From Candidatus Nomurabacteria bacterium (GTDB lineage Bacteria; Patescibacteriota; Minisyncoccia; Phycocordibacterales; SBAW01): a stretch of DNA of 40,767 bases. The notes below the pieces were generated by a model. It did not search any database. It worked only from the letters and a program-made list of their open reading frames with translations, and had not been told where the DNA came from. The position numbers and the translations under genes are program-made. The stretch is from assembly GCA_943349945.1 (NCBI GenBank), contig CALQZS010000002.1:179750-220516 (forward strand), in the 5' to 3' direction. Of the stretch, positions 13,265 through 40,767 are shown piece after piece; position 1 is the first letter of the stretch, and every line of letters begins with the position of its first letter.

Positions 13265-13293
13265 ACTAACGCAGTCAGACTACGTTAGTTTAG
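13261..13293. repeat. dispersed palindromic repeat, copy 1 (33 bp, one arm mismatch)
   Basis: CTAAACTAACGCAGTC-A-GACTACGTTAGTTTAG; overlaps the thrS stop codon. Confidence 0.85.
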
Positions 13294-13301
13294 CCACACA
13301 C

Positions 13302-13333
13302 AAAAAAAGACGGACACCATGTCCGTCTTTTTT
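13302..13333. terminator. bidirectional intrinsic terminator between convergent genes
   Basis: AAAAAAAGACGGAC-accat-GTCCGTCTTTTTT. Confidence 0.9.
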
Positions 13334-38155: not shown

Positions 38156-38695
38156 TTAAAATGGACACTCCGGCAGCGGCGCTGGCGGGTTGGTGGCACC
38201 GTTCCACCAATTTGTATTACGATTGACTCCAGTGACGCACCACCCGTTTGGACCGACTGCAATGTTGTCGTTTGGGTTTTCGAGCGACACTCGGATGCCG
38301 TATGTCATTTTGGTGCTACCGCGCACATACTGATAGTCCTGTCCCGTGCCTTTGTGTTTTGGATCCTGCGGAATCTCCACTAGGTAGTTGTTATTGTTGT
38401 AGGTAATGAGCGACTCGGCGAGCGTAGTTATAGAGGTGCCCGTATCGTCATTGGTAGACGCGGCAGGATACTCGCCATACGTTTGTTGATACACCTCGAG
38501 CGCTGCTTTGAGCGTCTTCACATCCTCTGCACGCCGGGCGTCGCGCGCCTTAGCACGCGCACTCGTGAGCGATACAAAAATAATGCTCGACAGCACACCT
38601 ATAATGGCGACAACGGTCAAAAGCTCTATCAGGGTAAATCCCCTACCCGGAGTACGCAGAGCGCGCCCAAAAAATTTTATATTATGCAGCGACAT
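38156..38695 (-). CDS. type IV pilin-like protein (pilin 1)
   Basis: GRGFTLIELLTVVAIIGVLSSIIFVSLTSARAKARDARRAEDVKTLKAALEVY. ATG at 38695 overlaps the gapA 3' end. Confidence 0.9.
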   Translation of the reverse strand: MSLHNIKFFGRALRTPGRGFTLIELLTVVAIIGVLSSIIFVSLTSARAKARDARRAEDVKTLKAALEVYQQTYGEYPAASTNDDTGTSITTLAESLITYNNNNYLVEIPQDPKHKGTGQDYQYVRGSTKMTYGIRVSLENPNDNIAVGPNGWCVTGVNRNTNWWNGATNPPAPLPECPF

Positions 38696-39701
38696 TTTTT
38701 CCACTTGCTTGTACATGGCGCACCAGTGTGTGTGCGTAGCCCATCTCGTTATCATACCAAGCCAACACCTTTACCAAGTTGCCGCCGGTTACGCGGGTCA
38801 TAGCAAGGTCTGCAATAGAGGCATACACACTGCCCACAATATCACTCGACACCAACTCTTCTTCTGTAGCGTCGAATATCCCCTGCCACCGTGGACTTTT
38901 TGCAGCCGCACGCAGCAACTCATTCACCTCCTCTGCAGTGGTGTCTCGTTTTGCAACAAAGGTTATATCCACCAACGAACCAGATATAGTGGGTACCCGT
39001 ATGGCTATACCATCAAACTTGCCGTCCAGGTTTGTATACGCCTTGGTCACCGCAACGGCCGCACCTGTTGAGGACGGCGTGATGTTTTGTGCTGCAGCAC
39101 GGCCACGACGCATGTCGCCCTTGGCCGGCGAGTCTACCAACGACTGAGTTGCCGTGTAGGAATGCACGGTGTTGAGCAGCGCTTTTTCTATACCCAACCC
39201 CTCGTCCAAAATAGCAATGAGTGGGCTTGCGGAGTTTGTGGTGCAGGAAGCATTAGAGCTTATGGTGCAGGTTTGGAGCTTGTCTTCGTTTAGACCCACA
39301 AGCACTGTTGCGCCGTTCACAGCCGCATCTTTGACTGGCGCGGTAATAACCACCCGCTTTGCACCTGCGGTTATGTGGGCTTGTGATTTTTCGTAACTAT
39401 CAAAAACACCCGTAGACTCGACCACTACGTCTACCTGCATCGCCCCCCATGGCAGCCCCGTTGGCTCGCGCTCACTCAAAAATGCGACTTCTCGTCCGTC
39501 GAGCAGCAACTTACCGTCCTTTGCCGCCACTGTAAAAGGTGCTTGGCGGTATACGCTGTCGTATTTCAACAAATATACTAAGTTATCCAAACTCCCCAGG
39601 TCGTTTACCGCAACAATTTCAATATCTGGATTATTATATGCAGCCCGCACAAATGCCCGCCCAATACGCCCCAGCCCGTTTATCGCTACGCGTGTCTTCA
39701 T
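38682..39701 (-). CDS. gapA: glyceraldehyde-3-phosphate dehydrogenase
   Basis: VAINGLGRIGRAFVRAAY, SSNASCTTNSASP, WYDNEMGYAHTLVRHV. Confidence 0.97.
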   Translation of the reverse strand: MKTRVAINGLGRIGRAFVRAAYNNPDIEIVAVNDLGSLDNLVYLLKYDSVYRQAPFTVAAKDGKLLLDGREVAFLSEREPTGLPWGAMQVDVVVESTGVFDSYEKSQAHITAGAKRVVITAPVKDAAVNGATVLVGLNEDKLQTCTISSNASCTTNSASPLIAILDEGLGIEKALLNTVHSYTATQSLVDSPAKGDMRRGRAAAQNITPSSTGAAVAVTKAYTNLDGKFDGIAIRVPTISGSLVDITFVAKRDTTAEEVNELLRAAAKSPRWQGIFDATEEELVSSDIVGSVYASIADLAMTRVTGGNLVKVLAWYDNEMGYAHTLVRHVQASGKNVAA

Positions 39702-39752: not shown

Positions 39753-39791
39753 AACCAAAACTAACGCAGTCAGACTGCGTTAGTTTTGGTT
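39753..39791. repeat. dispersed palindromic repeat, copy 2 (39 bp, perfect 19-bp arms around a central A)
   Basis: AACCAAAACTAACGCAGTC-A-GACTGCGTTAGTTTTGGTT; overlaps the transposase stop codon. Confidence 0.92.
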
Positions 39792-40470
39792 ACTCAAATT
39801 CAGCGCGTAACCAAGTGCCACCCAAAAGAACGTCTCGAGAGAAGTCTTTAAATTGTAAGGGATTTTTATATATCTCTCCCAGTAAATCTTTATCAACCAC
39901 AGGAAACGACCGCACTTTGGCATACTCACCCAAGCTAGAGAATGGGTATTCTGCGGCCCATTGCCACGCCTTATCAAAATCCTTCATGGCTGTTCTCAAA
40001 CCTCCTGGATAGAGTTCTAGTGTGTTTTTTACCATTATATACACTGCCGCATATCGCAAATATTCGTCTCCGGTAATAGTACGACTCCTGTACGCACCTT
40101 GGAACAAACTCCCTCTTTGTTTGTGTTTTTCATTATAATGATTGGTCATACTCTGACCTATTCTGCGCATAAACAAAGACACACCGCCTGTGCGTATTTC
40201 TTGCAACAACAAGTGCATATGATTTGACATAAGTGTATATCCCACCACACGCACTATTGGCACACGATCGGGCCACCAATCTGGACGATGAAACAAATTT
40301 TCCTGTCTGGTAAGTTGGTCCCAGTTTTCATCAAGGTATTCGTCGTTCATATAAAAAAGGAGTCTTAGAAATCGCCAATGTTCCGCAGCATCATTTACTA
40401 TTGGCAACCCGCGCGCGCCGCGTTTGACTACATGAACATACGAGTCGAGTGTGAATGGTTGCACCCTCAT
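39790..40470 (-). mobile_element. Y1/REP-associated tyrosine transposase (RAYT)-like CDS
   Basis: HUH motif in VVGYTLMSNHMHLLLQE. RIGQSMTNHYNEKHKQRGSLFQGAYRSRTI supplies the candidate catalytic Tyr. Confidence 0.88.
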
Positions 40471-40495
40471 GCCATTAGCCTATCACCCTCTACAC

Positions 40496-40524
40496 AAACT
40501 AACGTAGTCTGACTGCGTTAGTTT
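40496..40524. repeat. dispersed palindromic repeat, copy 3 (14-bp arms, one mismatch)
   Basis: AAACTAACGTAGTC-T-GACTGCGTTAGTTT; the core is the exact reverse complement of copy 1. Confidence 0.88.
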
Positions 40525-40527
40525 TGG

Positions 40528-40767
40528 CTATTCTGAAGCTGGGGCTGAGCTTGTGGAGGAATCGGAGCTAGAGCCAGATGAGTCTCCTGAGCCTGAGGAA
40601 GAATCAGAAGATGAGCTGGTCGAAGAGTCCGAGCTATTTGATGAGTCAGCAGAGCTGCTTGAGTCTGAAGCACTTGCAGAAGAGTCCGCGCTCGAAGTAT
40701 CGGATGTGCTGCCGGTGTCTGCAGTACTTGCTGTGGTCGAAGAGTCGGTTGAGGCGCTCGAGCTTGA
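40528..40767 (-). CDS. 3' end of a Ser/Asp-rich low-complexity protein running off the window
   Basis: Open frame from the edge to TAG at 40528-40530: SSSSASTDSSTTASTADTGSTSDTSSADSSASASDSSSSADSSNSSDSS...SSAPASE*. Confidence 0.7.
   Translation of the reverse strand, partial: SSSSASTDSSTTASTADTGSTSDTSSADSSASASDSSSSADSSNSSDSSTSSSSDSSSGSGDSSGSSSDSSTSSAPASE

Follow-up and report, generated by a model that had tools for sequence, protein, structure and literature searches.

The locus described here raises the question of whether a RAYT-like transposase gene and the palindromes on either side of it belong together, as was proposed in an initial annotation that took the hairpins to be the REPs of this RAYT. 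The window, by which we mean the whole stretch of 40,767 nucleotides that was analysed (G000:C2:179750-220516), comes from a host genome, G000, of 664 kb and 98% completeness. The family comparison covers 41 genomes including G000, with 69 RAYT-like genes in total, and a named-locus set comprises 80 loci, mostly from Paceibacteria (Adler-, Kaiser-, Taylor-, Nomura-, Yanofsky-, Zambryski-, and Wolfebacteria, and others). These bacteria have genomes of 0.5-1.3 Mb with up to nine RAYTs per genome; the compared genomes are metagenome assemblies, and the window RAYT is close to a contig end. We favor, with a probability of about 0.82, a reading in which the locus is a REPtron or TIRtron, composed of a single-copy, domesticated-type Y1 HUH transposase of the RAYT/TnpAREP superfamily, nearest to subclass 2.1 (TIRYT), and its own cognate palindrome.

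The transposase and its palindromes

The RAYT-like gene (39790..40470, minus strand) is intact and encodes a protein of 226 residues with the Y1 HUH motif SNHMHLLL recognized in the initial annotation (H84 and H86), a candidate catalytic tyrosine (Y144), an FQ motif, and a YPFSS tail; H84, H86, and Y144 are invariant in an alignment of 50 relatives. The protein scores 27.2 bits against the Pfam Y1_Tnp profile, above the cut-off of 23, and fails the NCBIfam profile REP_Tyr_transpos (NF047646) with 28.6 bits against a cut-off of 80. Because a sequence search of the PDB gave ISDra2 alone, at an E-value of about 0.05, we used fold comparison, and the AlphaFold2 model (mean pLDDT 94.8) has as its top PDB match the E. 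coli RAYT with its REP hairpin (4er8; E 5.8e-6, TM 0.62 by target, with only 12% identity in the structural alignment), followed by the IS608 and ISDra2 transposases. The tyrosine region reads Y144-IMV-K148-N149, and K148 and N149 are kept in at least 90% of the 50 relatives. The metal-ligand position at Tyr+4 is N or Q in the described classes (PMC6006769), and since K148 is almost invariant there in this subgroup, catalysis cannot be assumed for the window RAYT. The gene is single-copy, the other three RAYT-like genes of G000 being 52%, 28%, and 30% identical to it. On one side lies gap (GAPDH; 38682..39701, minus strand), whose 5' side is a recurrent place of RAYT insertion in the family, and the far-side boundary is the 3' end of a gene for a Ser-rich surface-type protein (40528..40767, minus strand, cut by the contig end), a counterpart of which likely adjoins gap in the genome G033.

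The palindrome that had been noted at each end of the RAYT is present exactly, as CTAACGYAGTCWGACTRCGTTAG, at 39761-39783 and 40499-40521. The complete inverted repeats that bracket the gene are 29-39 bp long: the gap-side palindrome (39753..39791) has 19-bp arms around one base and overlaps the RAYT stop codon by two bases, and the distal palindrome (40496..40524) has 14-bp arms with one T.G wobble and sits just 5' of the RAYT start and just beyond the stop of the Ser-rich gene. A third exact copy follows the thrS stop codon (13266..13288), and none is expected in 100 shuffles against the three in the window. Pattern searches that allow mismatches, with patterns derived from G000, are the source of all palindrome copy numbers given here, and for the window palindrome they find six copies in G000, one of which has a single mismatch; reversed-pattern controls and lone exact half-sites were both absent from this genome. 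As single-stranded DNA the palindrome has a predicted folding energy of -7.8 to -13.9 kcal/mol (z -6.4 to -9.3), with the inner 31 nt of the gap-side copy the most stable at -13.9 kcal/mol (z -9.3). DNA-uptake-type half sites were considered and ruled out, since the arms are found only as full palindromes. A plasmid or viral origin was likewise rejected, with no match among plasmids and no copy of the palindrome in the viral contigs searched. We also note a mosaic-like site elsewhere in G000 (L006, about 1477-1523; G000:C2:146185-146231), at which the palindromes of two different RAYTs are 3 bp apart, adjoin a good promoter match, and have divergent genes on either side.

Pairing of RAYTs with private palindromes

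The four RAYT-like genes of G000 are bracketed by four different palindromes, present in 6, 6, 2, and 17 copies. In addition to that of the window these are CCCACAAGTCWGACTTGTGGG, with six copies of which one has two mismatches; CACCYGCGGGTTWAACCNGCRGGTG, whose two copies are only those flanking its RAYT; and CGAAGGACTGACCTTCGTAARGC, with 17 copies. This private pairing extends through the family, in which matching repeats lie at the two ends of 55 of the 69 RAYT-like genes, whereas the upstream side of one gene matches the downstream side of another in 10 of 828 combinations (1.2%), several of these representing close kin or shared gap sequence. Matched end repeats are likewise seen at 73 of the 80 named loci against 12 of 800 mismatched pairs, although in a few of the 80 the best-scoring end match is something other than the palindrome itself, and kinship among the genomes inflates the apparent number of independent RAYT/palindrome cases.

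The palindromes differ in their stems and tend to share a center. A GTCNGAC center is present in both palindromes of 43 of the 83 genes in the close subgroup, compared with a background of 15 in 4683 odd palindromes elsewhere in the same loci. The outer-stem positions 6-12 carry 0.06-0.43 bits, as calculated only from loci selected for a GTCNGAC core at both ends, and similarity of the outer stems follows RAYT similarity weakly, if beyond chance (Mantel r 0.19, with 1 of 2000 permutations as high). Stem turnover is possible between RAYTs with 78% protein identity. One RAYT lineage has the same neighbor genes in ten genomes (L024, L031, L040, L045, L048, L050, L052, L053, L059, and L061), and because its palindromes differ while the neighbors are constant, it reflects vertical inheritance with repeat turnover. 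The 3' end of ung offers a separate observation, in that the genome G002 has there its own L043-type palindrome GTAAGCAAGGCGAGACCTTGCTAC (L177) and ung of G000 carries its own unrelated palindrome.

Distribution, empty sites, and alternative explanations

The window palindrome occurs in four of the 41 genomes, namely G000 (six copies), G027 (nine), G033 (two), and G028 (one, with two mismatches), and in none of the other 37. It co-occurs with its RAYT in G027, where a 61%-identical RAYT is bracketed by the same palindrome as in the window. G033, the closest relative as judged by gap (84%), is without the window RAYT, yet has two copies of the palindrome, as would fit a loss of the RAYT. The initial annotation had proposed counting the palindrome genome-wide and in genomes with and without this RAYT, and the outcome is divided: most copies are where the RAYT is present (6 and 9), but the total in G000 is low, at six. 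Abundance in relatives lacking the RAYT, which had been named as an observation that would count against the pairing if equal, is instead two copies in G033, one weak copy in G028, and zero in 37 genomes.

Comparison of G000 with G033 reveals three informative sites. After thrS, G000 reads TAAA[CTAACGCAGTCAGACTACGTTAGT]TTAGCC where G033 has TAAATTAAGCC, an empty site; at ung the palindrome is present in G000 and missing from G033; and at the locus between gap and the Ser-rich gene G033 has one palindrome and no RAYT, where G000 has the RAYT between two palindromes. These empty sites, together with the RAYT-less gap locus, identify the palindrome and the RAYT cassette as presence/absence units. 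The state of the gap locus in G033 may reflect loss of a RAYT between two palindromes or entry of a RAYT beside a resident palindrome, both of which fit the sequences. Sites of solo palindromes also differ among G000, G027, and G033, and we infer that these are insertion polymorphisms, probably mobilized by the window RAYT. A window-type palindrome with two mismatches is also read in frame within trmD of G027 (L153, about 1501-1523) and G028 (L091, about 1501-1523), where it encodes KRSQTAL and KRSQTTL respectively; the G028 copy precedes a second palindrome, which matches that of G028's own RAYT (L055).

Of the rival explanations, the one that fares best, improbable as we consider it, sees in the palindromes nothing more than bidirectional intrinsic terminators of the ordinary kind, which flank an incidental RAYT by chance. 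The copies do lie mostly at gene 3' ends (infB/rbfA, ung, and thrS), the stem being preceded by A-runs and followed by T-runs, but one copy is between divergent genes and has no T-run, and at thrS a separate intrinsic-terminator-like hairpin (13302..13333), distinct from the palindrome, follows in G000 and is conserved in G033, so that the palindrome is not the sole terminator there. Moreover, the sequence is restricted to genomes that carry the cognate RAYT or close kin of it, each RAYT of the family is surrounded by a different palindrome, and a terminator scan calls none of the palindromes, although its loop rule may exclude such hairpins.

We regard it as very unlikely that this is a classical insertion sequence of the IS200/IS605 type, bearing subterminal hairpins and leaving ends behind as MITE-like solo copies. 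The Y1 HUH core and hairpin ends are indeed those of IS608 and ISDra2, the fold resembles their TnpA, and the cassette is present or absent at gap. However, each genome has a single copy, the other Y1 genes of G000 are at most 52% identical to that of the window, and all four have different ends, so near-identical copies as in an active insertion sequence are missing; no tnpB was seen beside the window RAYT, and the protein has a class 2-like architecture with the FQ motif and SS tail rather than the short IS200 form. Double-stranded operators of a dimeric regulator, perhaps serving RAYT autoregulation without any mobility, would suit the near-perfect dyad symmetry about a single base and the copy about 40 bp 5' of the RAYT start, but are hardly credible given the equal copies 3' of the RAYT gene and at the 3' ends of unrelated genes, the empty sites in G033, and the similar in-frame palindrome in trmD of two genomes, a poor position for an operator.

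Relation to known systems and to the gap locus

The link between this RAYT and its palindrome thus holds, because the pairing is private, the distribution follows the cognate RAYT, and the solo copies behave as insertion polymorphisms; it is the identification of the hairpins as canonical REPs that has to be given up. Few copies genome-wide had been named in advance as an outcome that would speak against it, and there are six rather than hundreds; neither GTAG nor GTGG (the GT[AG]G foot at the 5' side of a REP) is found directly at the hairpin foot in any of the six G000 copies. The REPtrons of E. coli, Pseudomonas, and Stenotrophomonas (Nunvar et al. 2010, PMC2817692; NAR 2021, PMC8266576) are similar in having a RAYT between its own palindromes, a palindrome family for each RAYT, dispersed intergenic copies, and a fold that the window model is predicted to share (the RAYT-REP complex 4er8), but they differ in having tens to hundreds of copies (usually >100 for REPs) and in the center of the palindrome, which here is a single base.

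The nearer relatives are the TIRtrons and their TIRYT proteins (Di Nocera et al. 2013, PMC3733652), which correspond to TnpAY1 subclass 2.1 (Quentin et al. 2018, PMC6006769). The 226-residue length is close to the subclass median of 238, and the protein has LFQG for the FQ motif, NHMH for NHxH, and the YPFSS tail, all judged by description against Table 1 of PMC6006769. The terminal inverted repeats, some of which are self-complementary in TIRtrons, and the presence of related families of moderate copy number in the rest of the genome are further likenesses. Unlike TIRYTs, nearly every gene here is paired with a repeat of its own that is palindromic throughout and contains the recurrent GTCWGAC core, and no REP-like sequences were found for subclass 2.1 by Quentin et al. 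(PMC6006769). The TIRYT sequence GGGGWSAS is absent from CTAACGYAGTCWGACTRCGTTAG, and a GGGGTCAGACCCC palindrome flanks a distant family member (L086). The window RAYT also departs from the class 2 signature Y---NP (YxxxNP) with YxMVKN; its siblings L023 and L024 carry YVLLNP and YVHLNP. Because the GTAG foot and copy number of REPs are lacking and the features of subclass 2.1/TIRYT mostly fit, we file the system near TIRYT and outside the canonical REP families, as a new variant that works like a RAYT/REP pair.

By analogy with the homologous TnpAREP proteins (PMC8266576, PMC2817692), which is our basis for hairpin binding, cleavage, and the strand and direction of movement, a plausible course of events can be proposed. 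The palindrome, whether at the locus or as a solo copy, would fold to a hairpin once its DNA becomes single-stranded, as at a replication fork or in a transcription bubble, and the RAYT would read it through the GTCWGAC apex and the private outer stem. Y144 would then cut the DNA next to the hairpin and the RAYT would join the hairpin elsewhere, which would leave single palindromes in intergenic spaces and allow the RAYT cassette to come and go between a pair of them. At their sites, the hairpins may also act as bidirectional terminators of transcription.

In at least seven genomes, RAYT-like genes directly adjoin the 5' side of gap, with a further RAYT hit there in G038, and these loci (L021, L032, L035, L043, L054, L064, L083, and L139) have different palindromes. 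The tree requires this trait to have changed at least four times and so rules out that the RAYTs beside gap share one origin; several lineages, at least four of which are represented at this insertion hotspot, thus arrived there independently. A rough binomial estimate for 7 of 69 genes lying beside one given gene of about 700 is 1.4e-9, a figure that ignores shared ancestry and the post hoc choice of gap.

The sibling RAYT L024 (G000:C3:11166-11948) has a REPIN-like family, in which the 17-copy repeat forms inverted dimers of about 70-75 bp with the layout TTATCC[AC]CA...CTTACGAAGGTCAGTCCTTCG-N-CGAAGGACTGACCTTCGTAAG...TG[GT]GGATAA, the ends of which match the DnaA box. There are about 12 dispersed copies (e.g. 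L154:1490-1562, L158, L159, L268, L275, L281, L284, L286, and L291), and no copies of the core were found at up to two mismatches in the 40 relatives. Of the 43 TTATCC[AC]CA 9-mers in G000, 24 belong to L024 repeats, and a reversed-pattern control gives 8; across the loci their density is 0.40 per kb beside RAYT genes versus 0.041 elsewhere, with no enrichment of scrambled controls. The 9-mer is also seen near palindromes of other lineages (L023, L048, L050, L056, L061, L067, L213, L223, L230, L231, L247, and L261). A tentative and rather doubtful extension is that Paceibacteria have a fast-diversifying address system in which single-copy RAYTs would read a shared GTCWGAC apex and a private stem, with the spot at gap reoccupied by different lineages, and in which the REPIN of one lineage, with its DnaA-box ends, could have a tie to replication initiation (e.g. 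by DnaA titration) in a minimal-genome host.

A large survey associated non-IS Y1 genes with large genomes (PMC6006769), and in the open-licence PMC literature we found no report coupling RAYTs or REPs with CPR/Patescibacteria. The system described here places a known enzyme-plus-repeat partnership in this branch of bacteria. With more than 100 natural enzyme/hairpin pairs that combine one recurrent apex with variable stems, the choice of a REP by its RAYT becomes directly testable, and the genomes compared display palindromes inserted at clean sites and, between palindromes, a RAYT that was gained or lost.
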